Below are positions 1 to 12,290 of a DNA stretch of 12,290 nt, in pieces; within the stretch, counting starts at the first letter, position 1; the number at the start of each line of letters is the position of its first letter. The position numbers were made by a program, and so were the translations under genes. The notes under the pieces are model-generated. The model saw only the letters and a list, made by a program, of their open reading frames with translations. It did not search any database and was not told the origin of the DNA. Source of the stretch: Myxococcota bacterium (lineage in GTDB: Bacteria > Myxococcota > Polyangia > GCA-2747355 > JAKLHH01). Location: positions 1-12,290 of the forward strand of contig JAKLHH010000100.1 of NCBI GenBank assembly GCA_022710245.1, read 5' to 3'.

Positions 1-1
1 C

Positions 2-1066
2 GCGACGGCGCCGGACTGCGCGGTGGCCCCCGAGCACTCGCTGCTCGTCGCTGGCGGGCTCGGCGCCGGAGCCTGCAAGACGCTCACGGCGACCTCGACC
101 AACGTCGGCGCCGGGACCAAGCAGGCCTGGGCCTTCGCCGATCACCTCTGCCAGATCGCCGAGGGCAACGAGGGCAACAACCAGCGCTCCTACACCTACG
201 GCGTCGGCGTCGACGCGCCCGACCTCAAGGTCACCAACTTCACCGTGACCACCGAGGGCGCCTCCGCCACCTTCGTCGCCACGGTCTGCAACGCCGGCGC
301 GGCGGCGGCCGGGGCCTCGGAGCTGGGGATCTTCTACGACCGGACGACCGCGCCGCAGTGCGGGGACGCCGCCGACTGGAGCTCGGCGGTGGCCGGCCTG
401 GCGCCCGGCGAGTGCGAGACGCGCACCTACCAGCGCGAGGGCGTCGCCGGCGGGAGCTACAAGGCGTGGGCCCGCGCCGACGTGGGCTGCGCCGTCGGTG
501 AGAGCGATGAGACCAACAACAGCGCCAGCCACGCCTACGCGATCCAGGCCCAGGTCACCGACCTCGCGGTCACGGCGCTCAGCGCCAGCGTCGCTGGCGA
601 GCGCGTGACCACCATCGCCACCATCTGCAATCGGGGCTCGGTGAAGAGCCCGGCCACGGTCACCGGCCTCTTCCACGACCGGCAGGCCGCCCCGGCCGAC
701 ACCTGCGGCGACGCGCCGGACCAGAAGGCCACCCTCGACCCGCTCGACCCCGGTGGGTGCACGAACCAGTCGTGGGTGCGGGCCAAGGTGCCGGTGGGGA
801 GCTACACCGCCTGGGCGGTCGCCGACGCCGAGTGCGCGGTCACCGAGTCCGACGAGGCGAACAACGCCGCCTCGTCGCCCTACACGGTGGGCGGCGCGGC
901 GAGCGACGCGGGCGTCCGCGAGGCGGGCGCCGACGCGGGGGACGCCGCGGCCCCTGGCGGGGGAGGCTGCTCCTGCAACCTGACGGGGCCGGCGGCCCCG
1001 GCGCTCGGTCTGCTCGTCGGGCTGCTGCTGGCGGTCGTGGCGCTGCTGGCGCGGCGGCGCCGCTGA
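2..1066 (+). CDS. CARDB-repeat surface protein with MYXO-CTERM tail, 5' truncated
   Basis: Seen: the reading frame is open from base 2, before the first possible GTG at 23, so the true start lies outside the window and only the C-terminal part is present. The protein shows two complete repeats of about 105 residues and the end of a third. Each opens with a 'DLxVT' strand and closes with an Asn-Asn motif after acidic residues (DETNN, DEANN), and carries Cys pairs. This is the pattern of CARDB (cell-adhesion-related, Ig-like) domains. The tail has an Ala/Asp/Gly-rich linker, a GGCSC motif, a hydrophobic helix of about 20 residues and RRRR before the stop. Known: this is the MYXO-CTERM sorting signal of myxobacterial surface proteins, thought to be processed at the Cys by a rhombosortase/myxosortase-type protease. 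Inferred: an exported protein anchored at the cell surface; ligand unknown. The domain call is firm, the role is not. Confidence 0.88.
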   Translation, partial: ATAPDCAVAPEHSLLVAGGLGAGACKTLTATSTNVGAGTKQAWAFADHLCQIAEGNEGNNQRSYTYGVGVDAPDLKVTNFTVTTEGASATFVATVCNAGAAAAGASELGIFYDRTTAPQCGDAADWSSAVAGLAPGECETRTYQREGVAGGSYKAWARADVGCAVGESDETNNSASHAYAIQAQVTDLAVTALSASVAGERVTTIATICNRGSVKSPATVTGLFHDRQAAPADTCGDAPDQKATLDPLDPGGCTNQSWVRAKVPVGSYTAWAVADAECAVTESDEANNAASSPYTVGGAASDAGVREAGADAGDAAAPGGGGCSCNLTGPAAPALGLLVGLLLAVVALLARRRR

Positions 1067-1129
1067 GGCCCTCCCCTCGTCCGCGCCTCCCGCACCCAGC
1101 TCGGTACCCGGGACGCAAACTGGCATTCC

Positions 1130-1159
1130 TTGCCCGGTAGCGTAGTGCCGATCTATGAT
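1130..1159 (+). promoter_or_regulatory. candidate sigma70-type promoter of the kinase unit
   Basis: A TTGCCC box (1130-1135; 4 of 6 matches to TTGACA) is separated by 18 nt from TATGAT (1154-1159; 5 of 6 matches to TATAAT). Transcription would start near 1166, about 10 nt before the kinase ATG, which makes a very short leader. The GAGG that would serve as ribosome binding site (1164-1167) lies right at that start, so the exact start site, or the box itself, may be wrong. This is the least GC-rich part of the 110-bp intergenic gap. I see no clear terminator for the preceding gene. Confidence 0.4.
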
Positions 1160-1176
1160 CTCCGAGGTTTACTCGT

Positions 1177-2760
1177 ATGCTGATGAGCCCCGCGCCGATT
1201 CGGGCAGTGCCGCCGGGTGAGCGACGCTTCGGTCGCTACACCCTGCTCTTCCGGATCGCGAGCGGTGGGATGGCGAGTCTGTACCTGGGCCACTACGCCG
1301 GCCCCGACGGCTTCGAGAAGTTCGTCGCCATCAAGCGGATCCACTCCCACCTGGCGGAGAACCCCGAGTTCTGCCGGATGTTCGTCGACGAGGCGCGGCT
1401 CGCGGCGCGCATCTCGCACCCGAACGTGGTGCAGGTGCTCGAGCTCGGCGCGGTGGCCGGCTCGTACTTCATCGCCATGGAGTACATCAACGGCGAGAGC
1501 CTGACCGCGCTCCTCCGCCGCACGCGGCCGCCGGTCGAGGTGGGCCTCAGCGTGGTCTCGCAGGCCGCGCAGGGGCTACACGCCGCCCACGAGCTCCGCG
1601 CCATCGACGGCGCCGCGCTGAACGTGGTGCACCGCGACGTCTCCCCCTCGAACCTGCTGATCAGCTACGACGGGGCCGTCAAGGTGGTGGACTTCGGCGT
1701 GGCGAAGGCCAAGGGCAACACCTCGACCACCGGCGTCGGCGAGGTGAAGGGCAAGTTCGCCTACATCGCGCCCGAGCAGCTCGCGGCGCGCGGCGGCGCC
1801 CGGGTCGATCGGCGCGCCGACATCTTCGCGCTCGGCATCGTCCTCTACGAGGTCACCACCTACAAGCGCCTCTTCTTCGCCGACTCCGACGCGGCGACCG
1901 CCGACCTGGTGCTGCGCGAGCCGATCATCCCTCCCTCGCGGGTCGCCCCGGACTACCCGCCGGAGCTCGAGGCGATCGTGCTGCGAGCGCTGGAGCGAGA
2001 CCCCGACCAGCGCTTCCAGACCGCGCATGACCTCCACCTCGAGCTGGAGGGCTACCTGAACAGCGTGGGGCTCCACGTGCTGCCGAGCACCATCGCCGAG
2101 CTGATGCAGGCCACCTTCCCCGATCTGATCGAGGAGAAGGCCGAGATGGTGCGCCGGAGCCGGGAGATGCTGGAGTCGACCCCGGCGCCCGAGGACCCGA
2201 GCAGCTACCTCTCGGGGCCCGAGGTCGCGGTCGCGGGCGGCAGCCGGCGGCCCTGGCGCGTCATCGGCGGGCTGGTGGCGGCGGTGCTGGTGATCGGCGC
2301 CAGCGTCCTCCTCTATGCGCTCACCCGTCACGGCAAGACGGCCGCCCAGCCCGGGAGCGGCAGCGCCGAGGAGCAGCTCGTGCGCGTGCAGATCCGCACC
2401 ACCCCGGCGACGGCCCGCATCCTCTTCGGCGACAAGCCGGTGGCCAACCCGCTCGACCTCCGACAGCGCAAGGGCGAGGGCATGGTCAAGGTGACCATCA
2501 CCGCGCCCGGCTACCACCAGCGGATCCTCGAGGTCCCGCTCGCCGAGGGCGGCACCTTCCTCGTCGAGCTCGAGCGCGAGGCGCCGGCCACGCAGCCGGC
2601 CACGCAGCCAGTGGCCATCACCGACCCGCCGCGGTCCCCGCGCAAGGGCGGCAAGACGATCCCGACCAGGCCCCCCAAGACCAGCAAGACGACGAAGACC
2701 GGCGGCAAGAAGGACCAGCCGATCGTCAAGGACCTCTTCAAGAACCCCTACGACCAGTGA
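1177..2760 (+). CDS. membrane Ser/Thr protein kinase with C-terminal PEGA domain
   Basis: Eukaryotic-type (Hanks) kinase of 527 aa. Seen: glycine loop around residues 27-38 (IASGGMASLYLG), ATP-binding Lys53 in VAIKR, catalytic loop HRDVSPSN at 152-159 (Asp154, Asn159), DFG at 172-174, and APE at 198-200. The catalytic-loop Lys normally found two residues after Asp is Ser, a variant common in myxobacterial kinases and compatible with activity. One membrane helix lies at about 362-381. An extracytoplasmic PEGA-like beta domain follows at about 402-466, then a Pro/Lys/Thr-rich tail ending in KNPYDQ. Known: such kinases phosphorylate cytoplasmic partners, with the outer domain sensing or anchoring. 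The ATG at 1177 is chosen because GAGG lies 9 nt upstream; a second ATG at 1183 would be too far from it. The next gene starts within 6 nt, so they are probably co-transcribed. Substrates unknown. Confidence 0.95.
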   Translation: MLMSPAPIRAVPPGERRFGRYTLLFRIASGGMASLYLGHYAGPDGFEKFVAIKRIHSHLAENPEFCRMFVDEARLAARISHPNVVQVLELGAVAGSYFIAMEYINGESLTALLRRTRPPVEVGLSVVSQAAQGLHAAHELRAIDGAALNVVHRDVSPSNLLISYDGAVKVVDFGVAKAKGNTSTTGVGEVKGKFAYIAPEQLAARGGARVDRRADIFALGIVLYEVTTYKRLFFADSDAATADLVLREPIIPPSRVAPDYPPELEAIVLRALERDPDQRFQTAHDLHLELEGYLNSVGLHVLPSTIAELMQATFPDLIEEKAEMVRRSREMLESTPAPEDPSSYLSGPEVAVAGGSRRPWRVIGGLVAAVLVIGASVLLYALTRHGKTAAQPGSGSAEEQLVRVQIRTTPATARILFGDKPVANPLDLRQRKGEGMVKVTITAPGYHQRILEVPLAEGGTFLVELEREAPATQPATQPVAITDPPRSPRKGGKTIPTRPPKTSKTTKTGGKKDQPIVKDLFKNPYDQ

Positions 2761-2765
2761 GTCCC

Positions 2766-3677
2766 ATGAGATCGACCCGCAGGACGGCCGCGCTCGTCTT
2801 CCTCCTCGCCGTGCTCGCCGGGGCCCCGGCGCGCGCCGAGCAGGAGAGCGGCACGGCAGCGGACGCCTCGAGGTCCTTTCGCGAGGGGCAGCAGCTCTTC
2901 GAGAAGGCGGACTACGTCGGCGCGATCGAGTCGTTCCAGCGCGCCTACAAGCTGAAGCCACACTTCAGCGTCCTCTGTAACATCGCGCTCAGCTACGAGC
3001 GCCTCGGCAACCTGGTGCGCGCCGCCGAGCGCTACCGCGACTGCCTGACCAAGGGCGCCGAGCAGGCCGGCAACGGCGACGTCGTGCGGAACTCCCTGCA
3101 GCGCGTCGAGGGCCGCATCACCTGGGTCGCGGTGCGCTCGCCGGGCAAGGGCGGCAGCGTCTACCTCGACGGCCTCTTCGTCGGGCCCGCGCCGCAGCGG
3201 GTCCCCGTCAACCCGGGCACCCACGTCGTCGAGGTGAGGCGGGCGGGGGCGGATCCGGCGCGCTTCACCATCACCACGCGCGGCGGCGAGCAGCGGGACG
3301 TGGAGCTCGCGCCGGCGGACGTGGCGGGACCGAAGCCGATCATCGTGGTCAAGGAGCGCGTGCGCACGGTCTCGCGGCGCACCGTGCACCAGGCCTGGTT
3401 CTGGGGCGGGCTCGGCCTCAGCGTGGCGCTGGCGACGGTGGCGACCGTGCTCGGGGTGCAGACGCTCGGCCTCCGCGACGACTACGAGGCGGCGCCGACC
3501 CGCCAGCTCCTCGACAAGGGCACCGCGCGGCGCACCCTCACCAACGTCTTCTGGGGGCTGACGGCGGCGGCCGCGGGGACGACGACGGTGCTCTTCTTCT
3601 TCACCGACTTCAGCCGGCACCGCGAGCAGCCAGCCACGCCCGTCTCCCTCGGAGTCGGCCTGCGAGGGACCTTCTGA
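2766..3677 (+). CDS. exported TPR/PEGA-domain protein
   Basis: 303-aa protein. Seen: Arg-rich N-terminus, hydrophobic core and ARA at about residues 22-24, a Sec signal peptide with likely cleavage before Glu25. TPR-like helical repeats occupy about 36-100 (FREGQQLFEKADYVGAIESF, then the IALSYERLGN...AAERY repeat). A PEGA-like beta domain follows at about 118-183 (SVYLDGLFVG, then NPGTHVVEV). Two hydrophobic segments lie at about 211-235 and 261-280. The end, LGVGLRGTF, is a common tail in myxobacterial proteins of this type. Known: TPR plus PEGA proteins sit near kinase genes in Myxococcota, but their function is poorly defined. A GTG at 2757 overlapping the kinase stop would add three residues; I prefer the ATG at 2766, though neither has a clear SD, which suggests translational coupling to the kinase. 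Inferred role: periplasmic or membrane scaffold of the kinase unit. Confidence 0.88.
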   Translation: MRSTRRTAALVFLLAVLAGAPARAEQESGTAADASRSFREGQQLFEKADYVGAIESFQRAYKLKPHFSVLCNIALSYERLGNLVRAAERYRDCLTKGAEQAGNGDVVRNSLQRVEGRITWVAVRSPGKGGSVYLDGLFVGPAPQRVPVNPGTHVVEVRRAGADPARFTITTRGGEQRDVELAPADVAGPKPIIVVKERVRTVSRRTVHQAWFWGGLGLSVALATVATVLGVQTLGLRDDYEAAPTRQLLDKGTARRTLTNVFWGLTAAAAGTTTVLFFFTDFSRHREQPATPVSLGVGLRGTF

Positions 3678-4942
3678 TGCGCGCCGCCAGCCAGACCCCG
3701 CTGCTCCTCGGCCTCGCCGCGCTCCTCGCGGGCTGCATGGTCACCTTCGACGAGAGCCTCCTTGGCCGGCGCGACGGCAGCGTCAGCGTCGACCAGCCCG
3801 TCTGCGCGGACGCCACCTGCGACGGCGACAACCTGGTCGGCTGCGGACACACCCTGGAGACCTGCGCCCTCGGCTGCGTCGCCGATCCGACGGCGCGCTG
3901 CCGGACGCTGGTCCCCTCCAACGGGATCAGCGCGCCCGGGCGGGCGCAGACGGCCGACCTCGTGGTGAAGGGCAGCTCCATCCTCGACGCCTGCAGCGGC
4001 GACCTCGACGGCGCGCCCATCCCGGGCGTCACCTTCCTCACCCGTGACCAGTCGGGCGGGCCGAAGCTCGGGGTCGTGCGCGTACGCAGCCTCAGCCTCG
4101 CGGCGGGCGCGACGCTGACCGTGCTCGGGACCTGCGCGCTGGCGCTGGTCGCCGACAACCGCGTCGAGCTGGCGGGCGTGCTCGACCTCCGCGGCGGCGC
4201 CAACGCGCCCTACATCGCGGGTCCCGGCGGCTCGCAGGGCGGCTTCGTCGGTGAGGCGGCGGGCTGTGGCAAGGGCGGCAGCGCCGGCTCGCTGGCCGGC
4301 GGCGGCGGCGGCGGCTTCGGCGGCAGCGGCGGCAACGGCGGCAAGTCGGCCAGCTCGATGGGAACGGGAGGCGCGGCGTGCGGGGTGGAGAAGCTCGAGC
4401 CGCTCCTCGGCGGCAGCGGCGGCGGCCGCGGCGGCTGCAAGACCTCCGGCTGCACGAGCGGGCCGGGCGGCGGCGGCGGCGGCGCGGTCGCGTTGATCGC
4501 GGGGCAGGCCGTGGTGGTGCCGGCCGGCGGAGGGGTCAACGTGGGCGGCGGCGGGGGCGGCAGCGGCACCGACGGCGCGTCGGGCGGCGGCGGGGGCGGC
4601 AGCGGCGGCGCCATCCTGATCGAGGCGCCCACAGTGACCCTGGACGGCGTGCTCGCCGCTGGCGGCGGCGGCGGCGGCGGCGTCGGCTCGGGGGCCTCGG
4701 CCGCGGGCCAGCAGGGGCAGCTCTCCGCCGACGCGGCCAAGGGCGGGCAGGGCACGGTGGTGGGCGGCGACGGCTCCAGCGCGACCGCGGCCAGCGGCAG
4801 CGGCGGCGGCTCCGACAACAAGGACGGCTGCGCCGGCGGCGGCGGCGGGGCCGGGCGCGTGCGGGTCAACACCGCGAGCGGCGAGGCGCAGGCCCCGTCG
4901 GTCAACGGGCTCCTCTCGAAGGGCAAGGTGGGGGTCAAGTAG
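3677..4942 (+). CDS. glycine-rich lipoprotein
   Basis: 421-aa protein. Seen: hydrophobic signal ending in the lipobox LLAGC, so Cys20 would be lipidated after signal peptidase II cleavage. A short Cys-rich segment follows at about 43-76, containing TCDGDNLVGC and ALGC and resembling small Cys motifs of myxobacterial lipoproteins. Then comes a beta-rich stretch (about 90-180) and a region of about 200 residues dominated by runs of Gly broken by short beta segments such as GAILIEAPTVTLDG, which suggests a beta-helix or similar elongated fold. The start ATG overlaps the previous stop (TGATG) with GAGGGA 7 nt upstream, so it is coupled to the TPR/PEGA gene. It ends 8 nt inside the convergent E1-like gene. 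Known: Gly-rich lipoproteins of this kind recur in Myxococcota without assigned function. Inferred: outer-membrane or surface structural protein. Lipoprotein call firm, role unknown. Confidence 0.9.
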   Translation: MRAASQTPLLLGLAALLAGCMVTFDESLLGRRDGSVSVDQPVCADATCDGDNLVGCGHTLETCALGCVADPTARCRTLVPSNGISAPGRAQTADLVVKGSSILDACSGDLDGAPIPGVTFLTRDQSGGPKLGVVRVRSLSLAAGATLTVLGTCALALVADNRVELAGVLDLRGGANAPYIAGPGGSQGGFVGEAAGCGKGGSAGSLAGGGGGGFGGSGGNGGKSASSMGTGGAACGVEKLEPLLGGSGGGRGGCKTSGCTSGPGGGGGGAVALIAGQAVVVPAGGGVNVGGGGGGSGTDGASGGGGGGSGGAILIEAPTVTLDGVLAAGGGGGGGVGSGASAAGQQGQLSADAAKGGQGTVVGGDGSSATAASGSGGGSDNKDGCAGGGGGAGRVRVNTASGEAQAPSVNGLLSKGKVGVK

Positions 4943-6509
4943 CCCTCGCCGCTGCCTCGCAGGATCCATCAGCGTCCGACTTCGCCGTCTGCGGACGCTC
5001 CGCCGTCTGCAGACGCTCCGCGAGGAAGGGCGAGGTCGAGGCGAGCGCGCGGTCGAGCGCGCCCTCGTCGGAGAGCGCTGGCATCACCTGCCGGTGGTGC
5101 ACCACGAGGACCCGGCCGCAGGCCTCGCAGCGTCGCTCGGACTCCACGCCGGTCACGTCCTCGAGGCCCAGCCGGACCACCTGACCTGGATAGTCGATCC
5201 CGTAGGCGCCCTCCTCGGCCACGTTGCCGCCGAGGAGGCAGGTGGTGCCCGCGTCGAGCAGGCGCCGCAGCCAGGGGGCGCGGGCAGACGCCGGCAGGAC
5301 GAGCTGCGCGAGGCAGCGCGCGGCCACCTCGGCGACGCGCGCGGTCTCGATCGGGGTCGCCGGCTCGGCGACGAGCTCCAGGTAGGCGCGCTCGCGCTGG
5401 CGGTCATCGAGCTCCTGGTAGAGGAAGCGCGCCAGCTCGTCGTCGAGCGCGGGCGCGCGCTCGAAGCCGCGGTAGAGGTGCCCGCGGAAGCAGGAGAGGC
5501 AGGGCGTCCCCTCGCGCGGCACCACCACCGCGACCTCGAAGAAGCGCGCGCGCGGGTAAGCGACGGCGGCGACGTGGGGGACGCCGCGCTCCCAGAGCAG
5601 GCGCGCGAGGGCGGTGTGGTCCGCGGTGCCCGTGGCGAGGAGCGCGGCGTCGGGCGGATCCTCCTCGAGCAGCCGCCCGAGCCGCGCCAGCTCCCTCTCG
5701 CCGACGCGCCAGCGCCGCGCGCGCACCCGCTCGGGGCCCAGGCGCCGACGGAGCGCGCTCACCTTGAGCTCGCCGAGCTCGCCGGTCCCGAACCACTGCC
5801 GGTGCGGGTTGAAGATGGTGACGCGGCCGGGATCGACGAGCGTCCAGCGCGCGCCCGCCCTGGCCAGCGCGCGGATCGCCTCGCTGCCGACGCTGCCGCA
5901 GCCGATCACCAGGAGGTGCCGGCCAGCGAGCGCGAGCGGCTCCGGCTCCGGCGCCGGCGGCGGCGGCGGCCGCGGCGCGGAGGACTCCGCCCAGGGCCAG
6001 AGGCGGTGGCCGTGGTAGGTGACCCCGTCGGGCAGGGGCGCGCGCCCGAGCAGGTGCTCGCGGGCGCGGAGCGCGACGGCGTAGCTCAGGTTCAGGTGGC
6101 TCCAGCGATCGCCGGGCGCGAGCTCGAGGGTCGCGGTCCGCGCGCGCGCGTCCCAGCGCACCCGAGGCGGCTCGCCCGGCGCCAGGGGCCTGGCCGCGAG
6201 GTGGAGCGCCCCGCGGCCGCGCGTGAGCAGGCGCGCGGGCTCGAAGCCGTTCTTCCAGCAGAGCAGCGCCTGCAGGCGCGCTCGCTCCTCGCCGGGCTCG
6301 CCGCGCGCCACGATCACGCGCCTGAGCGCGCAGCCGGCGAGGAGCTCGATCACACGCCCGGTGACGCCGACGGTCTCCGCCGAGATGATCGCGCCCTCGA
6401 GCCCCGCGCCGAGGAGCGGGCGCAGGCGGGCGAAGTAATCGCGCCGAGGGGAGCGGCGCCGCACAGGTCGGGCGGTCGTGCGTAGCGGCCGCGACCAATA
6501 ATCAGCCAT
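4935..6509 (-). CDS. E1-like ubiquitin-activating (ThiF/MoeB superfamily) enzyme
   Basis: 524 aa. Seen: the adenylation domain begins at about 195 with GCGSVG (203-208), followed by VDPG with Asp226, FNPHRQ (Asn234, Arg237) and GELK with Lys249. These match the ATP-binding pattern of ThiF/MoeB/E1 proteins (nucleotide loop, Asp, N-x-x-R, G-x-x-K). CLSC (337-340) and CEAC (461-464) match the two CxxC pairs of the structural zinc site. Candidate thioester cysteines are Cys399 and Cys424. Residues 1-180 form a separate domain that may be a degenerate adenylation domain, joined by a Pro-rich linker (about 180-191). Known: such enzymes adenylate the C-terminal Gly of a ubiquitin-like protein and pass it on. 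ATG chosen: AAGGAG lies 7 nt upstream and the gene overlaps the JAB stop by 8 nt. Being last in an operon with E2 and JAB makes conjugation more likely than cofactor sulfur transfer. Partner protein not visible. Confidence 0.92.
   Translation of the reverse strand: MADYWSRPLRTTARPVRRRSPRRDYFARLRPLLGAGLEGAIISAETVGVTGRVIELLAGCALRRVIVARGEPGEERARLQALLCWKNGFEPARLLTRGRGALHLAARPLAPGEPPRVRWDARARTATLELAPGDRWSHLNLSYAVALRAREHLLGRAPLPDGVTYHGHRLWPWAESSAPRPPPPPAPEPEPLALAGRHLLVIGCGSVGSEAIRALARAGARWTLVDPGRVTIFNPHRQWFGTGELGELKVSALRRRLGPERVRARRWRVGERELARLGRLLEEDPPDAALLATGTADHTALARLLWERGVPHVAAVAYPRARFFEVAVVVPREGTPCLSCFRGHLYRGFERAPALDDELARFLYQELDDRQRERAYLELVAEPATPIETARVAEVAARCLAQLVLPASARAPWLRRLLDAGTTCLLGGNVAEEGAYGIDYPGQVVRLGLEDVTGVESERRCEACGRVLVVHHRQVMPALSDEGALDRALASTSPFLAERLQTAERPQTAKSDADGSCEAAARAT
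4972..5018. repeat. 18-bp tandem duplication and inverted repeat at convergent gene ends
   Basis: Two adjacent 18-bp units, 4983-5000 and 5001-5018, differ by one base; the second contains the perfect palindrome GTCTGCAGAC. An inverted repeat GCGTCCG (4972-4978) / CGGACGC (4992-4998) overlaps the first unit and could form a 7-bp stem with a 13-nt loop. It lies 30 nt after the lipoprotein stop and inside the last codons of the E1-like gene, where it duplicates RLQTAE/RPQTAK. A role as weak terminator for the + strand transcript is possible, but no T-run follows. Confidence 0.55.
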
Positions 6510-7389
6510 GAACGCTCTCCTTCAGCTCGCGCACCGCGGCCAGCCACGCCTCCGGCGCCAGGCGCGGGCCGCGGCTCGGGTAGGCGCGGCGCACCTCGCC
6601 GCTCGAGGGCGCGACGTAGAAGCGCGGCTCGCGCGAGGGGAACTCGAGCGGCAGCAAGATCACCACGCGGAGGTGCTCGTCGACCTCCACCACGGTCCGC
6701 AGCCAGCCCTCGAAGAGCTCATCGCTCGAGAAGCGGAGGTGCGCGCGCCTGAGCGCCCGCCGCCAGCGCCGCAGGAGGTGCCGCTGCGGAGCGCGCCGCT
6801 CGAGGTGGGGCAGGAGCAGCCGCCGGATCAGCGCGCTCTCGTCGCTGACGACCTGCGCCAGCCCGAGCCCCACCACCTCGCCGCCGTCGAGCGCGAAGCC
6901 GTGGAGCTGCCAGCCACCAGGTCCCGGGGCCGCGATCAGGCTGAAGCTCGTCTCCAGCCCGGCCTCGCGGTTGCGCTCGAGGAGCGGCAGCATGTGGCCG
7001 TCGACGTCGCAGCCGGGGCCCCGCGAGGGCCAGGTGCGGCCGTGAGCGAAGGGGTGCGAGTGGAGGTAGGCGCAGGCGCGCAGGCGCGGGTGCTCCGCGC
7101 AGAGCGCGGCGACCTGGGCGTTGACGCGCTCGTCGCCGCCCGCGCGGACGCTCACCCGCGCCGGGAGGTTCTGCTGGGCCTCGCGCGGCACCAGCACCAC
7201 GCGCGGGACCACGAGGGCGCGGAGATCGCCGAGGCGGAGCGGCGCGCAGGGGTCGGGCTCGCTCGCGCGCGGCACCAGCGCGACCAGCGGCACCGCGATC
7301 CCCTCGTCGGGGTAGACGCGGTCGAGCTCGGCGACGATGGTCTCCCAGCAGGACGCGGCGACGAGCAGCTCGGGGACGGGGCGGATCAT
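6502..7389 (-). CDS. JAB/JAMM-type isopeptidase, variant metal motif
   Basis: 295 aa. Seen: an N-terminal JAB (MPN) domain with a candidate catalytic Glu29 (YPDEGIAVPLVAL) and YLHSHP with His110 and His112, followed by GCDVDGH. Aligning Asp130 as the third ligand leaves Cys127 where the JAMM motif (HxH...SxxD) usually has Ser. The His-to-Asp spacing is about 7 residues longer than in classical JAMM proteins, so an insertion sits in the active-site loop. Residues about 205-295 form an additional domain with LPLEFPSREPRFYV, resembling the central sheet and YPxxPP turn of E2/RWD folds but without a catalytic Cys. Known: JAMM proteases remove or mature ubiquitin-like modifiers, including in bacterial E1/E2 operons. 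The ATG at 7389 has GAGG 7 nt upstream overlapping the E2 stop codon, implying coupled translation. JAB call supported by motif and context; activity unproven. Confidence 0.85.
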   Translation of the reverse strand: MIRPVPELLVAASCWETIVAELDRVYPDEGIAVPLVALVPRASEPDPCAPLRLGDLRALVVPRVVLVPREAQQNLPARVSVRAGGDERVNAQVAALCAEHPRLRACAYLHSHPFAHGRTWPSRGPGCDVDGHMLPLLERNREAGLETSFSLIAAPGPGGWQLHGFALDGGEVVGLGLAQVVSDESALIRRLLLPHLERRAPQRHLLRRWRRALRRAHLRFSSDELFEGWLRTVVEVDEHLRVVILLPLEFPSREPRFYVAPSSGEVRRAYPSRGPRLAPEAWLAAVRELKESVHG

Positions 7390-7398
7390 CGGGGCACC

Positions 7399-8097
7399 TC
7401 AGCTCACGATGGCGAAGGCGTTGCGCTTGCCGGCCGCCCAGTTGAGGAGCTTGATCACGTGCGCGTAGGCGCGCTGCTGCAGCACCTCGCGGCAGGTCAT
7501 CGCGCGCCGCCACTCGCCGCCGGCGAAGAGGCACATGAAGCCGCCGCCGAGGAGGTGCACCTCGTGGCTCGGCGCCTCCCTCGGCATGCCCCGGATCTCG
7601 AAGAAGCCGGGGAGGTAGGCGACCCGGGGCGGCGACTCGGGGTAGCAGCCCAGGTAGACGGCGACGAGCGGCACCAGGAGGTAGGTCCCGGTCGAGGGCT
7701 GCTCGCCGACCACATGCAGGCGCGGCGTCCGCGCGACCAGGCGGTCCCGCAGCGACGGCAGGCCGCCGAGACCCACCGGCGGCAGCAGCCCGAACCAGGC
7801 GAGCTGGGCGGCGCCGAGGGTGGAGAGCGAGGCGCGACGGTCGCAGATCACGCAGCGGAGGCCGCGGTCGAAGACGAGCATGCCGCCGCAGCCGCAGAGG
7901 ACGCGGTCACGGCCGAGGCTGACGGTGAGCAGCCAGCGCGGGAAGTGCTCGGCCATCTCGGCCGCCTCACGACGCAGCCGGGTGCCGCCGTCGCCGGCGT
8001 GCAGGACGCGGCCGGCGGTCTCCAGGTCCACCTCCCAGCGGTGGTGGACCAGGCGGTCGCCTTCGCGGCGCGGGAACACCTGCTCGAGGACCTTCAT
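7399..8097 (-). CDS. E2-like conjugating protein with zinc ribbon
   Basis: 232 aa. Seen: the C-terminal half carries the E2 (UBC) signature: strand LLVPLVAVYL, then CYPESPPRVAY (residues 151-161, the YPxxPP turn), a His-rich stretch (SHEVH, 177-181), and GGGFMCLFAGGEW (184-196). In that motif Cys189 is the likely catalytic Cys and Trp196 the conserved Trp after it; a C-terminal helix follows. The HPN motif of classical E2s is not intact: no Asn is seen, as in other bacterial E2-like families. The N-terminal half has a small metal site, CGC (68-70) and CVIC (82-85). Known: E2s receive a ubiquitin-like protein from E1 as a thioester and transfer it to a target. The start at 8097 is set by GAGG 7 nt upstream, overlapping the stop of the preceding small gene; the JAB gene begins 9 nt after this stop. 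E2 call rests on motif order and on E1/JAB neighbours. Confidence 0.85.
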   Translation of the reverse strand: MKVLEQVFPRREGDRLVHHRWEVDLETAGRVLHAGDGGTRLRREAAEMAEHFPRWLLTVSLGRDRVLCGCGGMLVFDRGLRCVICDRRASLSTLGAAQLAWFGLLPPVGLGGLPSLRDRLVARTPRLHVVGEQPSTGTYLLVPLVAVYLGCYPESPPRVAYLPGFFEIRGMPREAPSHEVHLLGGGFMCLFAGGEWRRAMTCREVLQQRAYAHVIKLLNWAAGKRNAFAIVS

Positions 8098-8101
8098 GGC
8101 G

Positions 8102-8455
8102 TCACCTCGTGGTTCGATCGGGCACGTGGAGCGCGGCGAAGGTCGCGCGCTCGAGGACGATGCGCGTCTTCTCCTCGGTCCGCCGCGGCCGATCCGAGAG
8201 CACGTCGGGACGCGGCGCCGCCTGTGCGGTCGGACCCGGCTCCGCGCCCACGCCCACCGCGAACAGCTCCCCCGTGTCCTCGAAGAGCCCGTCGCCCCGA
8301 TCGAGGTAGACGCGGCGCGTGGTCGGGCAGAGCCGCCGCGCGGCGTCGAGCGCCGGATCCGCCTCGAGCGGCGCCGGCTCGCGGCAGCAGGCGCAGCGGG
8401 CGAGCACCATCCCCGCCACCATCGGTCCCATCAGCTGGCTGGCACGTCCTCTCAT
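8102..8455 (-). CDS. small zinc-ribbon-module protein
   Basis: 117 aa, family not recognised. Seen: after a short N-terminus comes CACC (Cys21, 23, 24), 18 residues, then CPTT (Cys43) followed by VYLDRGDGLFED. This matches the modules in the upstream FN3/zinc-ribbon protein (CxCC ... Cxx[S/T] ... GxGx[F/Y]), so it looks like a free-standing relative of one module. The fourth metal ligand is Thr. The remainder (about 66-117) is Pro/Arg-rich and then helical, without recognisable motif; there is no signal peptide and no C-terminal Gly-Gly. The ATG at 8455 is chosen over an in-frame ATG at 8485 because AGGAGG lies 6 nt upstream. The E2-like gene follows after 4 nt and uses this stop region as its SD. 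Inferred: a zinc-stabilised partner of the conjugation system. Confidence 0.75.
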   Translation of the reverse strand: MRGRASQLMGPMVAGMVLARCACCREPAPLEADPALDAARRLCPTTRRVYLDRGDGLFEDTGELFAVGVGAEPGPTAQAAPRPDVLSDRPRRTEEKTRIVLERATFAALHVPDRTTR

Positions 8456-8461
8456 CGTCGT

Positions 8462-8467
8462 CCTCCT
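8462..8467 (-). promoter_or_regulatory. ribosome binding site deciding the start of the small zinc-ribbon gene
   Basis: AGGAGG on the minus strand, 6 nt before the ATG at 8455. The alternative in-frame ATG at 8485 lies upstream of this site and has no SD of its own, so the 117-aa form is preferred. Confidence 0.75.
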
Positions 8468-8499
8468 CTTCGTGGCAACAGTCATCGTCGCGATCGTGA

Positions 8500-9762
8500 T
8501 CAGGTGCGCCGCTTCCCCCGCGTGATGCCGCGGTCGCAGATCTCGGCGAGCCCCGCGTCCAGGAGCTCGTCGATCGCCGCGGCGTCGAAGATCGGCTGGC
8601 TCGGCGCCAGCACGTAGCCGGCCCCGGCGCGCTGGTGCACCTCGTCCGAGCGGCTGCAGCGGATCCCCTCGCCCTTGCGCACCAGCGGGCGCCGCGGCCG
8701 GCAGCACTGGCAGAGGCCGAAGGGCAGGTCCTCGATCAGGTGGAACCCCTCCGCGCCGTCGAGGCGGATGTGCTCCTTGCCCGAGTGGGCGCAGACGAGC
8801 GCCTCGGGGCCCGCGCTGCCGCGCGGCGTGCGCTGGATCAGGATCTTCTTCGGCAGGCAGCAGCGGCAGCTGCCGAAGCGGAGCCGCGCGAGCTCGAGGT
8901 AGTCGCCGCGGCCGGTGGGGAGGAACTCGGCCCCGCAGCCGCTGCAGAGGAGCAGGTAGCGCTCCCAGCGCACCTGCCCGCGGCAGTGGCAGCAGAGGAG
9001 CGGCGCGGCGTTGGCCGGGGTGGAGGTGGGACCCGGTCCTTGCGTCCCGTCGTTGAAGATCTCCACCTCGGGCGCCAGATCGAGGAAGGGATAGATCAGG
9101 TGGTCCTGCGGCAGGGCGAGGTTCGCCGCGCGCTCCTCGCCCTGCGGCGCGGGCGTGCAGCGCACCTCGGGGAGCCCGGCCCTGAGCACCCCGGCGAAGC
9201 GGGTCTGCAGCCGCACGGCGTAGGGCTGGCCGTTCTCCAGCTGGCAGCCGCGGCCAGCGTCGAGCGAGAGGCTGCTCACCTCGGGCTCGAGGGCGAGGCG
9301 GCGGAGCACACGCTCGCCGGCGCAGAGCTCGAGCTGCAGCCCGTCGACGAACCCGCGCCCGAGCTCCCAGTAGACGGTGAGGCGGCGGTCCTGCGGCATC
9401 ACCCAGAGCCGCCCCACCGCGGCGAGGTGCGCCTCCAGGCCGCAGCCCTCCTCGGGCCGCGCCTCCAGGCCCACGCGCGGCGTCACGCTGAACCAAGGCG
9501 AGCTGGCGACCGGCGCGCGCTTCGCTTCACCCCGCGCGCCGCCGGCGAGGACCGCGACCAGGTAGCGCTGGTGGCGGCTGAGCCCGTTCACGCGGTAGCG
9601 CTCGGTGGCGCGCGTCAGCTGGAGCGCTGTGTACGCGCGCACCGCGCCGGTGCGGATGAAGAGCAGGTGGTAGCTCGCCACCTCGCCGCTCGCCTGCCAG
9701 CGCAGCGCGAGCGCTCCGTCGGCGGGGACCCTGGCCTCGAGCTCGAGCTGGAGCGCGGACAT
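8500..9762 (-). CDS. FN3-like and triple zinc-ribbon-module protein of the conjugation operon
   Basis: 420 aa, family not recognised. Seen: two fibronectin-III-like beta domains at about 1-98 (LALRWQASGEVASYHLLF, then YRVNGLSRHQRYLVAV) and about 103-203 (LTVYWELG, then YAVRLQTRF). A linker follows, then three zinc-ribbon-like modules. The first has full C257-xx-C260 and C273-xx-C276. The second has CRCC (299-302) and Cys324 followed by Ser327. The third has CQCC (351-354) and Cys369 followed by Ser372. Each ends in a Gly-containing turn and an aromatic or aliphatic residue. The tail is acidic-helical, then basic (RGITRGKRRT). There is no signal peptide or membrane segment, so probably cytoplasmic. 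The gene lies 53 nt after the MBL gene and 44 nt before the small module gene. Inferred: scaffold, target-recognition (E3-like) factor or substrate. No enzymatic motif was seen. Confidence 0.82.
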   Translation of the reverse strand: MSALQLELEARVPADGALALRWQASGEVASYHLLFIRTGAVRAYTALQLTRATERYRVNGLSRHQRYLVAVLAGGARGEAKRAPVASSPWFSVTPRVGLEARPEEGCGLEAHLAAVGRLWVMPQDRRLTVYWELGRGFVDGLQLELCAGERVLRRLALEPEVSSLSLDAGRGCQLENGQPYAVRLQTRFAGVLRAGLPEVRCTPAPQGEERAANLALPQDHLIYPFLDLAPEVEIFNDGTQGPGPTSTPANAAPLLCCHCRGQVRWERYLLLCSGCGAEFLPTGRGDYLELARLRFGSCRCCLPKKILIQRTPRGSAGPEALVCAHSGKEHIRLDGAEGFHLIEDLPFGLCQCCRPRRPLVRKGEGIRCSRSDEVHQRAGAGYVLAPSQPIFDAAAIDELLDAGLAEICDRGITRGKRRT

Positions 9763-9768
9763 GATCAT

Positions 9769-9774
9769 CCTCCT
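9769..9774 (-). promoter_or_regulatory. ribosome binding site deciding the start of the FN3/zinc-ribbon gene
   Basis: AGGAGG on the minus strand lies 6 nt before the ATG at 9762 and directly abuts the in-frame ATG at 9768. Spacing favours 9762. The frame extends further upstream into the MBL gene, but those starts lack an SD and would overlap that gene. Confidence 0.75.
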
Positions 9775-9798
9775 CGGCGGCCGATCGGCCGCGCCGAG
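9773..9798 (-). other. intercistronic hairpin next to the ribosome binding site
   Basis: Within the 53-nt gap, CTCGGC (9773-9778) pairs with GCCGAG (9793-9798) around the palindrome GGCCGATCGGCC (9779-9790), with a 2-nt bulge. In the mRNA this makes a GC-only stem of 10 bp or more whose 3' side enters the first bases of the SD region. A second perfect palindrome, GAGCGCGCTC (9808-9817), overlaps the MBL stop. No U-run follows, so it is more likely an mRNA-processing or translation-control hairpin than a terminator. Confidence 0.5.
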
Positions 9799-9815
9799 CA
9801 CCGACTCGAGCGCGC

Positions 9816-12038
9816 TCAGGCCGCGGCCTGGCGCTGCTTCACGATGCGCGAGATCTGGCAGTGGAGCTGCGGCGAGCCGTGCACGATCCGCTTGAACTCG
9901 CCCCCGCGGATGGCGAGCACCTCGCACTCGTCGAGGGTGACGATGGAGGCGTTGCGCGCCTGCTCGAGGAACGGCGCGGTCTCGCCGATCACCGTCCCCG
10001 GGTCGAGCGTCACCGGCGCGCCGCGGACGAGGAGCGGCTCGCTGCCGCGGTAGACCTGCACCCGCCCCTGCACGAGGACGTAGACGGTGGTGCTCGCCGA
10101 GCCCTGCCGGATCAGCGTGGTCCCGGGCGGCAGGGTGCGGCGCACGGCCTCGCCGGCGAGCCGGTTGCGCGTCGTCACCGAGGCGGCGGAGAAGATGGGC
10201 ACGCGCTCGAGGTCGGCGCGCCGGCGCCAGAGCTCGGGGAGCGCCTGCGCCAGGCCGAGCGCGTGGACGAAGCGGCGGAAGGTGGCGCCAGGGATGCGGA
10301 GGAGCCGCGCCGGGGTCGTGGCCCGCACGGTGGCGCTGCGCGGGGCGTCGTTCACCGCCGCCATCTCACCGAAGAGCTCGCCGGCATGGAGCGAGGCGAG
10401 CAGCCGGCCGCCGCTCCCCAGCACGGCGAGCTCGCCGGAGAGCGTGAGGTAGACGTCGCGCGAGCGCTCGGCCTCGCGCAGCACCACCTGGCCGCGATTC
10501 ACCGAGAGCGAGGTCGCCGCGTCGAGGAGGACGTTCAGCCAGTCGGGGTCGGCGCCGGTGAACGCCGAGAGGAGCGCCTTGCTCGCGAGCCCGCGCTCGA
10601 GCGACGTCGGCCGCGGGGTCTCGGCGATCAGCAGGTAGCGGTGGCCCGGCGCGGCGACCGTGAAGGCCGCGCGGTCCTCCTCGGGGAGCCCGCTGGTGTG
10701 GACGCAGACCACGGAGGTCGGGCTGGAGCGGAAGTCGCCGGCGAGCCCGTGGATCATCCCGCCGCCCGCGTCGACCACGGCGACCTCGCCGTCCCAGGCG
10801 TAGAGCGCGAGGAGCTGCTCGAGCCGCGCGGGCGAGAGCACGCCGGCCGCCGCCGCGCGCTCGATGTTCGCGCGCGAGTTGTTGTCGCCGACCACCAGCA
10901 GGCGCCGCTCGCGATCGCCCTCGCGCATGGCCAGCTCGACGCCGGTGCAGGGGATCGAGTGCATGGTGTAGTGGAAGCGGAGACGCAGGCCGAGGTGGCC
11001 CTGCTCCTCGCCGGCGCGGACCGGCACCGGCTGGAAGGCGTCGTCGAGGAGCGTCGCCGGGCTGCTGACGGTCGGGTTCAGGATCGCGAGCTTCCGCCGC
11101 ATCACCGCCAGCGTCTCGCGGGTGGCGAAGAGCGTGAGCCGGTGGGTCACCTCGAGGAGCGCCGAGAGCCCCACCGCGTGGTCCTCGTGCGCGTGGGTGA
11201 GGATGACCGCGCCGACCTGGTCGAGCCCGATGCCCGCGTGCTCGAGCGTGGTGCGGATGTAGGGCCCGCAGTCGATCACCACGAAGCGGCCGTTCGTCTG
11301 CACCACCAGGTTCGAGCAGGGGCCGGTCGGGTCGAACCCGTGGCTGGTGCCGAGCGCGATCAGCTCGAACGGCTGCGGCACGACCGGCGCGCTGGCCGCG
11401 GGGAGGCGGTCCGCGTAGGGCGGCAGCGCCGCGCCGGGCTCCAGGCGGTGCTCCTCGATGCGGTCGTCCGCGGTGAAGAAGGAGTAGGTGTTGTCGCCGT
11501 GCCGCTTGACGCGCAGCGCGCCGAGCTCGGCCACCCCCTCGGCGTCGAAGAGGTGCGGCTCGAGGAGCTCCTCGATCTGCGCGACGCGGCCGTCGGCGTG
11601 CTTCAGCGCGAGGTGGCGGCCCTCGGCGAGGAGCATCGCCGCGGTCTCGGCGTCGACGCCCTCGCGGAGGAGTTCGTCCTCGGCCAGTCCGAGGAGCGTG
11701 AGCCGCAGGTAGAGGACGACCTCCGGCCAGTCCTCGGCGGCGGCGAGCACGGGCACGCGGCGCCCGCGCGCGAAGCAGCCCTGCACGAAGAGCGCGTGGT
11801 AGAGCGGGAACTCGAGCGCCCACTGCACCAGGCCGCCCGCGCTGCGGAGGTCGGGGATCAGCCAGGCGGTGACGCGCTTGCCGGCGCGCAGCCAGGCCTT
11901 CACCACCTCCTCGGGGAAGCCGAGCGCGAGCTGCTCCTCGCCGACCGTGATCACCTCGGCGCCGGGCATCACCTGCTCGATCTGGAGCTCGCCCCCGCGG
12001 CTGGTCTCGCTGCTGAGGTTCCGGGCGTCGCGTTCCAT
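9816..12038 (-). CDS. MBL-fold hydrolase with two cyclic-nucleotide-binding domains
   Basis: 740 aa. Seen: residues 1-220 are unrecognised. From about 225 an MBL domain starts (LIALGTSHG, VVIDCG) with the metal motif HAHEDH (282-287), then MHSIP (His360), VVGDNN (Asp385) and VHTSG (His447). Order and spacing resemble RNase Z-like or phosphodiesterase-like MBL proteins. The C-terminus has two CNB domains: about 515-600 with GELFGEMAAVNDAPRSATVR, a full phosphate-binding cassette (Glu558, Arg567), and about 612-725 with IGETAPFLEQARNASIV (Glu686, Arg695). Known: CNB domains bind cAMP or cGMP and gate attached activities; MBL proteins cleave phosphodiesters, thioesters or beta-lactams. The ATG at 12038 has AGGAGG 5 nt upstream; the frame stays open to the window edge, but earlier starts lack an SD. 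It is first in the operon. Substrate unknown; a nucleotide-controlled nuclease or phosphodiesterase is my inference. Confidence 0.92.
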   Translation of the reverse strand: MERDARNLSSETSRGGELQIEQVMPGAEVITVGEEQLALGFPEEVVKAWLRAGKRVTAWLIPDLRSAGGLVQWALEFPLYHALFVQGCFARGRRVPVLAAAEDWPEVVLYLRLTLLGLAEDELLREGVDAETAAMLLAEGRHLALKHADGRVAQIEELLEPHLFDAEGVAELGALRVKRHGDNTYSFFTADDRIEEHRLEPGAALPPYADRLPAASAPVVPQPFELIALGTSHGFDPTGPCSNLVVQTNGRFVVIDCGPYIRTTLEHAGIGLDQVGAVILTHAHEDHAVGLSALLEVTHRLTLFATRETLAVMRRKLAILNPTVSSPATLLDDAFQPVPVRAGEEQGHLGLRLRFHYTMHSIPCTGVELAMREGDRERRLLVVGDNNSRANIERAAAAGVLSPARLEQLLALYAWDGEVAVVDAGGGMIHGLAGDFRSSPTSVVCVHTSGLPEEDRAAFTVAAPGHRYLLIAETPRPTSLERGLASKALLSAFTGADPDWLNVLLDAATSLSVNRGQVVLREAERSRDVYLTLSGELAVLGSGGRLLASLHAGELFGEMAAVNDAPRSATVRATTPARLLRIPGATFRRFVHALGLAQALPELWRRRADLERVPIFSAASVTTRNRLAGEAVRRTLPPGTTLIRQGSASTTVYVLVQGRVQVYRGSEPLLVRGAPVTLDPGTVIGETAPFLEQARNASIVTLDECEVLAIRGGEFKRIVHGSPQLHCQISRIVKQRQAAA

Positions 12039-12043
12039 GGTGG

Positions 12044-12049
12044 CCTCCT
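12044..12049 (-). promoter_or_regulatory. ribosome binding site deciding the start of the MBL gene
   Basis: AGGAGG on the minus strand, 5 nt before the ATG at 12038. A TTG start at 12104 in the same frame has no SD and would place the start codon upstream of the candidate sigma54 promoter. Confidence 0.75.
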
Positions 12050-12070
12050 CTCGCGTCTGCCGAGGGGTTT

Positions 12071-12086
12071 TGCGAGGCGCGTGCCA
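12071..12086 (-). promoter_or_regulatory. candidate sigma54 (-24/-12) promoter of the conjugation operon
   Basis: Minus-strand TGGCACG-CGCC-TCGCA matches the sigma54 consensus TGGCACG-N4-TTGCW at all but one position and keeps the invariant GG-N10-GC spacing. Transcription would begin near 12060, giving a leader of about 22 nt that contains the AGGAGG site of the MBL gene. Known: sigma54 promoters need an enhancer-binding activator, and these are abundant in myxobacteria. No activator gene is in the window, and I did not identify its binding site upstream. Confidence 0.55.
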
Positions 12087-12201
12087 CCGGGGACAGGGGC
12101 GCAAGCACCGGAAGTCGCGGCCATCTCCGCCGTGACGCGTGGGGTTGCCGCCGCTCCAAAATGGGGCAGCGTTCCAGGATCGGGCGCGCCGCCCCGAAGT
12201 C

Positions 12202-12290
12202 GCGGTGAGCCCGCGGTGAGGTCGCCCGCGAGGTTGCCCGCGATGAGGTCGCGCGCGGGGAGGTCGCCCGCGGGGAGGCTGCCCGGGATG
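12202..12290. repeat. degenerate 15-bp tandem repeats at the window edge
   Basis: Units of consensus GCGGKGAGGTCGCCC run at 12213-12227, 12240-12254, 12255-12269 and 12270-12284, with shorter units at 12202-12212 and 12228-12239. The array continues past the edge. The 15-bp period equals five codons. One minus-strand frame reads GDLPA, RDLIA, GNLA, GDLTA, similar to pentapeptide repeats (A[D/N]Lxx), so it may be the end of an upstream repeat gene. All three minus frames are open here because of the GC content, so coding is unproven. Confidence 0.5.

Follow-up and report, generated by a model that had tools for sequence, protein, structure and literature searches.

Which protein does a bacterial operon conjugate if it encodes E1-, E2- and JAB-like enzymes and no recognisable ubiquitin? 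This question is raised by a 12,290-nt stretch of DNA from a Myxococcota bacterium (contig JAKLHH010000100.1, positions 1 to 12,290 of the forward strand), hereafter the window, which apparently is the entire contig. Its minus strand carries six open reading frames (ORFs), 12038-9816, 9762-8500, 8455-8102, 8097-7399, 7389-6502 and 6509-4935, separated by gaps of 53, 44, 4, 9 and -8 nt. In this order they encode a metallo-beta-lactamase (MBL) protein with two cyclic-nucleotide-binding (CNB) domains, a protein with an FN3-like part and zinc modules (FN3-ZnR), a small zinc-ribbon protein (ZNR), an E2-like enzyme, a JAB protein and an E1-like enzyme. This is the layout that a first-pass annotation, made from the sequence alone, had described, and its positions and gaps were reproduced.

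Among the six proteins, Lactamase_B, ThiF and two cNMP_binding stretches were identified above the Pfam cut-offs, while Pfam named no family at E ≤ 1 for the E2-like protein, the JAB protein and ZNR. A beta-grasp or ubiquitin-like family could not be recognised in any of the six by Pfam, NCBIfam or PADLOC. The missing ubiquitin had gone unnoticed in the annotation, as had a second, E2-like domain in the JAB protein and a conserved C-terminal block in ZNR. The operon is read here as a complete ubiquitin-like conjugation cassette, the modifier of which is probably ZNR and not a beta-grasp protein.

The conserved C-terminus of ZNR

ZNR, the proposed modifier, is a protein of 117 aa (8102..8455, minus strand) for which 187 homologues were found. 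In an alignment of 42 sequences (A11, drawn from the best 120 homologues), four invariant cysteines, read as a putative zinc ribbon that would bind zinc, are combined with a C-terminal block of about 24 residues and a linker that differs in length among the homologues. In the window this block is DVLSDRPRRTEEKTRIVLERATFA (8135..8206, minus strand), and its last Ala is the proposed mature C-terminus.

The C-termini were analyzed in the best 120 of the 187 homologues, and all counts of ZNR ends given here are among these matches listed. The block ...KxRIxLExxTFA could be identified in 119 of the 120; the homologue P0093 was dropped from the tail counts. Counted back from the terminal Ala (A-1), the residues K-12, I-9, L-7, E-6, T-3, F-2 and A-1 are invariant in 119 of 119 sequences and R-10 is found in 117. 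Exactly at this Ala, 60 of the 119 proteins end, whereas one has a tail of a single residue and 58 have tails of 2 to 27 residues. The tails are variable and low in information, with Gly as the first residue in 34 of 59. In the window, 10 residues follow the Ala (8105..8134, minus strand), and their removal by JAB is proposed.

The presence of a tail changes at least 20 times on the tree of the ZNR core, of which at least 5 changes are forced by well-supported branches, the tree being poorly resolved with more than half of its forks unresolved. In the DNA of five loci, the distance from the Ala codon to the start of the E2 gene is 17 to 69 nt; three of these loci have a stop codon directly behind the Ala, and the other two encode 6 and 10 further residues. 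A fixed end followed by variable, dispensable tails is as expected of a protease-trimmed precursor. The features of a functional modifier that could be seen for ZNR are an invariant C-terminus, a precursor tail and the partners E1, E2 and JAB.

Precedents for such a modifier have been described. In type II CBASS (cyclic-oligonucleotide-based antiphage signaling system), Cap2 was reported to conjugate the CD-NTase, which has no beta-grasp fold, via a C-terminal Gly/Ala whose conservation is restricted to operons encoding full-length Cap2 and Cap3 (PMC10097602). In B. cereus, this residue of the CD-NTase is Ala331, which was found joined to lysines of PspA (PMC11153139). For the Bil system, trimming of BilA by the JAB protein BilC before activation is described (PMC11354881). 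A 2025 review names, where it treats this matter, Cap2 as the only E1/E2 system acting on a non-beta-grasp protein (PMC12355090). From the Cap2 precedent and the pattern of the ZNR C-terminus we infer that the operon conjugates ZNR.

In the proposed mechanism, JAB would trim the ZNR tail and expose ...LERATFA. E1 would then adenylate the terminal Ala and form a thioester, probably at C424, and E2 would take ZNR over at C189 and attach it to amines of the target. JAB, aided by its own inactive E2-like domain, would remove ZNR again. The FN3-ZnR protein may act as an adaptor or in the manner of a ligase, whereas the regulated effector or main target of the system may be the MBL protein, a metallo-hydrolase that also exists without it.

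The chances are about even that ZNR is a dedicated non-beta-grasp modifier in the full sense, that is, that the operon is the second E1/E2 system after Cap2/CD-NTase that activates a protein unlike ubiquitin, and the first in which JAB trims a purpose-made zinc-ribbon tag to a C-terminal Ala, in this case joined to a cyclic-nucleotide-binding metallo-hydrolase. If true, the operon would be a concrete, testable second case of non-beta-grasp conjugation, the E1/E2/JAB machinery could pair with a modifier of another fold, and an invariant C-terminus followed by dispensable tails would be a signature for finding more systems.

Conservation and co-occurrence of the operon

The order of the six genes recurs in five genomes. 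All six were found in the same order in loci L001 and L008; the order is also the same in L002, where E1 is in two pieces, and in L009, where two frames share the FN3 protein. In genome G007 the set is spread over two contigs, with three genes at the end of the first and the other three on the second. Since the order is conserved in other genomes, the arrangement is not due to chance. The operon is thus real and conserved, and it is of a distinct type, as the annotation had suggested. The split genes, E1 in L002 (6352-8717) and the FN3 protein in L009 (14672-15902), reflect either decay or assembly error.

Next, co-occurrence was analyzed in 195 genomes of one phylum; these searches scored the best candidates of a first look per genome, so that misses are possible. 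E2, JAB and ZNR each match the same 4 genomes, which include the seed genome G001. FN3-ZnR matches these four and one further genome with a weak, fn3-only match. Of 8 genomes in a second phylum, one has E2, and this is the genome from which L002 comes. Residues 15-225 of the MBL protein (11364..11996, minus strand) form an N-terminal domain for which no family is named; it has 63 matches, all in proteins with precomputed MBL domains. Nearly the same stretch was found in 12 of the 195 genomes, namely the four with the cassette, three others with an identity of 53-60% and five with one of 28-34%.

Eight of these 12 genomes are without E2, JAB, FN3-ZnR and ZNR, and at the eight MBL loci concerned none of the five remaining genes of the operon gave a match at E ≤ 1e-3, where one contig is 3.6 kb long and another ends inside the MBL gene. 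The MBL protein is therefore probably an older, independent signalling protein, and FN3-ZnR, ZNR, E2 and JAB travel together. Scattering of the homologues, which the annotation had named as an argument against its own proposal, was accordingly seen for the MBL gene and not for the other four. Five distant MBL homologues (L040, L041, L042, L043 and L044; 24-27% identity by tblastn) are encoded by ORFs of 732-844 aa with different C-termini, in genomes without conjugation genes.

Among contigs of at least 4 kb, matched to one another by their length (P0166, of no stated length, omitted), 24 carry both ZNR and JAB, 18 carry ZNR and MBL, and 10 carry all three, the window's own included. The 18 contigs with ZNR and MBL compare with 0.11 expected from a shifted control. 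The flanking genes vary among the loci examined, and no constant partner was found. A link to mobile elements was rejected, as no relatives of E2 or E1 in plasmids and none of E2 in viral contigs were found at the sensitivity used.

The conjugation enzymes

The E1-like enzyme (524 aa; 4935..6509, minus strand) was identified by a Pfam ThiF match (E 3e-11). It comprises an N-terminal domain, a ThiF adenylation domain (5927-5490) and the candidate catalytic cysteine C424 (5240-5238). The ATP-site residues, the CxxC pairs and C424 are invariant in five aligned sequences (alignment A8, without L002 and its split E1). The E1 profile matches MoeB, NEDD8-E1, ATG7 and Cap2.

For the E2-like enzyme (232 aa; 7399..8097, minus strand), a zinc ribbon (7896-7843) and the candidate catalytic cysteine C189 (7533-7531) were located; C189, H178 and H181 are invariant in six aligned sequences. 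The PADLOC E2 profile matches 5 of the 6 members (best E 3.7e-4), and the structural model matches E2/UEV folds with moderate confidence. The two marks by which E2 enzymes are judged, the fold as predicted by the model and a candidate catalytic cysteine, were both found. At the C-terminus of E2 (7399-7431), a conserved GKRNAFAIVS-like tail is present in all six aligned sequences; it resembles the ERATFA of ZNR and is possibly a pseudo-substrate.

The JAB/JAMM peptidase domain (6820..7389, minus strand) has the metal-site residues Glu, HxH and Asp and gives an MPN-fold, Rpn11-like JAMM model. The identities of E1, E2 and JAB assumed in the annotation were in this way borne out. A second, E2/RWD-like domain is predicted in the C-terminal part of the JAB protein (6502..6792, minus strand), where the model has the order helix-strands-helix. 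Positions 26-82 of the PADLOC E1-E2 profile match the JAB protein of the window (E 0.0065), and the same profile was found in 7 of 50 JAB homologues with a best value of 7e-7 (alignment A9, 50 of 99 homologues). A sequence search of the JAB and E2 profiles against PDB yielded no JAMM or E2 match.

Comparison with known systems

The annotation had named MBL neighbours of E1/E2/JAB operons, Bil-type systems and type II CBASS as relatives. The best NCBIfam match of E1 is indeed NF058523 ('6A-MBL'), which supports the first of these in part; the score of 43.2 bits is far below the cut-off of 320, which was exceeded in none of the five cassette genomes and in none of the 195 genomes of the phylum. 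The sole NF058523 match at E ≤ 1e-40 was found in genome G082 (locus L018) and has one stop inside the match. By eye, L018 consists of an E2-E1-type ORF and a JAB-type ORF, has no match to the MBL protein of the window and is apparently unrelated to the cassette. We take type 6a of Iyer, Burroughs and Aravind (2006) to be the likely source of the family name. No paper was found under '6A-MBL' in the open-licence literature.

Types 6a to 6e are set out in the survey of 2006 (PMC1779556). As outlined there, 6a resembles the window in its E1, E2 and JAB modules, its MBL gene and the lack of a described ubiquitin-like gene; the adjacent MBL gene, a feature of 6a/6A-MBL, is present in the same operon here. 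In contrast, E2, E1 and JAB are described as one fused protein in 6a, usually in an operon of two genes, whereas the window has three separate genes and in addition FN3-ZnR, ZNR and the CNB domains (PMC1779556). E2, E1 and JAB are three separate ORFs in the window, L001, L008, L009 and L010, and in L002 part of E1 is in frame with JAB and the remainder in another frame. None of the types 6a to 6e, in the form described in the survey, joins separate E1, E2 and JAB proteins with an MBL-CNB, an FN3-ZnR and a small zinc-ribbon protein (PMC1779556).

Type II CBASS has a CD-NTase, which could not be recognised in the six proteins of the window or in ten flanking genes scanned at L001, L008 and L009. 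It also has a Cap2-type E2-E1 fusion in place of the separate genes of the window. The modifier proposed for the window differs as well, being a small zinc-ribbon protein with a tail that can be removed. Pycsar (pyrimidine cyclase system for antiphage resistance) differs in its pyrimidine cyclase partner, as none was found among the six proteins or the same ten flanking genes. The gene content of Bub operons probably also differs from that of the window. The BilABCD operon is similar in its separate E1, E2 and JAB genes and in a JAB protein that trims the modifier precursor, according to the description in PMC11354881. However, two ubiquitin-like domains are described for BilA (PMC11354881), and none was recognised in the window's operon by Pfam, NCBIfam or PADLOC.

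As its gene content differs from those of 6a/6A-MBL (by description), CBASS and, as far as recognised, Bil, the operon is regarded as a new type. In the open-licence literature, searched mainly by title, no description of the gene combination was found; later surveys of such operons did not turn up in it, so the type may be noted elsewhere.

The MBL-CNB protein and a possible role in defence

The MBL-CNB protein (740 aa; 9816..12038, minus strand) consists of the N-terminal domain, an MBL hydrolase and two CNB domains, with orthologues in L001 (60% identical) and L002 (50%). The tandem CNB domains (residues ~495-606 and ~609-737; 9828..10556, minus strand) match Pfam cNMP_binding in two stretches (E 4e-36) which, with Lactamase_B, confirm the domain composition given in the annotation. 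The CNB profile matches PKA-R/PKG CNB proteins, and a match to the PycC model covers the CNB region (residues 495-588). In an alignment of 37 of the 63 homologues and two loci (A10), the metal ligands are kept in 38 of 39 sequences. The conserved Glu and Arg of both CNB domains are likewise kept in 38 of 39, the exception in their case being a sequence without CNBs. Several metal ligands are lost in L002, the orthologue at L002:1557-3890 having HAHEEQ for HAHEDH with the rest of the protein kept.

A tentative reading, compatible with ZNR as modifier, is that the operon protects against phages by abortive infection, with the MBL protein as a cyclic-nucleotide-gated nuclease or phosphodiesterase effector. 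This would fit the sporadic occurrence in 4 of 195 and 1 of 8 genomes (counts that include the seed genomes), the resemblance of E1 to defence E1s and of the CNB domains to PycTIR models, and the resemblance of the MBL part to RNase Z and, weakly, to Apyc1. These two are its nearest named families, together with a likewise weakly matched cyclic-nucleotide phosphodiesterase. On the other hand, the loss of metal ligands in L002, the lack of relatives in plasmids and viral contigs noted above and the lack of a recognisable nucleotide cyclase among the ten flanking genes argue against it. The annotation had further expected defence genes nearby, and no consistent defence neighbours were found among the ten flanking genes with PADLOC. 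At E ≤ 1e-5, two of the ten match, both in L009: an AAA/DUF4143 protein, to PDC models, and a ClpA protein, to AAA-bearing models. The PDC models are presumably candidate classes. In L009, genes for ClpA and ClpS lie downstream of E1 on the same strand (L009:7197-9838) with the AAA/DUF4143 gene between them on the other strand, which may be a link to proteolysis or chance.

A defence role and cyclic-nucleotide control are plausible possibilities, and the suggestion that a nucleotide signal drives conjugation was not supported. Cofactor biosynthesis, which had been named as the competing assignment, received no support, since thiamin and molybdenum genes were not found among the ten flanking genes.

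Alternative explanations

ZNR could instead be an adaptor, the C-terminal block of which docks E1, E2, JAB or MBL and leaves the residues behind it free to vary, with the conjugated protein encoded elsewhere. This is unlikely. Zinc ribbons are common adaptor modules, the block is long at about 24 residues, and strong co-occurrence is equally expected of an adaptor. However, a docking peptide should not favour one exact end, whereas 60 of 119 ZNR proteins stop at the Ala and only one is a single residue longer, and the operon has no other recognisable substrate.

Less probable still is a beta-grasp modifier encoded elsewhere or in a hidden domain, by which the cassette would be a Bil/Bub-like system with extra genes. 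In the review mentioned above, Cap2 is the sole known case of action on a protein without the beta-grasp fold (PMC12355090), and the N-terminal domain of E1 could correspond to the inactive half described for BilD (PMC11354881). Yet no such gene was recognised in the operon or in the ten flanking genes at the other loci, and the short intergenic gaps leave no room for one inside the window's operon.

The idea that the MBL protein is activated like the CD-NTase in CBASS, with E1/E2 conjugating its C-terminal Ala-Ala and ZNR as an accessory, is similarly improbable: Ala-Ala (9816-9824) ends 59 of 63 MBL homologues despite variable preceding residues, and MBL is usually the sole partner in 6a operons as described (PMC1779556), but these 59 ends carry no tail needing trimming. 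Moreover, Ala-Ala is also the end of 35 of 99 JAB proteins, which makes the signal less specific, and of a complete close MBL relative in G159, a genome in which searches for E2, JAB and ZNR gave no match (one case, in a stretch with a run of N that may hide partners). Ala-Ala as a modifier signature was weakened by the latter two observations. Of the four MBL homologues that do not end in Ala-Ala, one is without CNBs, two look truncated and one has a different end.

Several points weigh against ZNR as the modifier. The Ala-Ala end of MBL could be a substrate, a degron or something else, which makes MBL a second candidate substrate, and a beta-grasp domain may be hidden in the N-terminal domain of MBL or of E1, both of which were covered by family searches. 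JAB is paired with both ZNR forms (24 pairs, 6 without tail), so that maturation cannot be its sole role and deconjugation would also be required. P0093 breaks the C-terminal motif, 67 of the 187 ZNR matches lie outside the C-terminus counts, and the ZNR profile found no match in PDB. In E1, a second cysteine, C60, is also invariant in the five aligned sequences, which makes C424 only the likelier catalytic residue. The E2 model is weak around the cysteine, with best Foldseek TM-scores of 0.20-0.42 by query. Finally, the case for conjugation of ZNR is built on comparative evidence.

The FN3-ZnR protein and neighbouring genes

The FN3-ZnR protein (420 aa; 8500..9762, minus strand) has an FN3-like N-terminal part and three Cys-rich modules (8994-8635), the cysteines of which are invariant in four aligned sequences (alignment A12, without the split FN3 protein of L009). 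The zinc-ribbon part of its first description thus holds, whereas the fn3 match is weak (E 0.0016; 19.0 bits, below the Pfam cut-off of 25). Homology of ZNR to these zinc modules was not supported (hhalign E 0.008, probability 4.9, 37 columns).

On the plus strand, positions 1-4942 encode a CARDB repeat protein, a Ser/Thr kinase, a TPR/PEGA protein and a Gly-rich protein, the last of which overlaps the end of the E1 gene by 8 bases. A tandem repeat with a period of 15 and about 4.9 copies (12209-12278) lies between the MBL gene, which it precedes, and the end of the contig.

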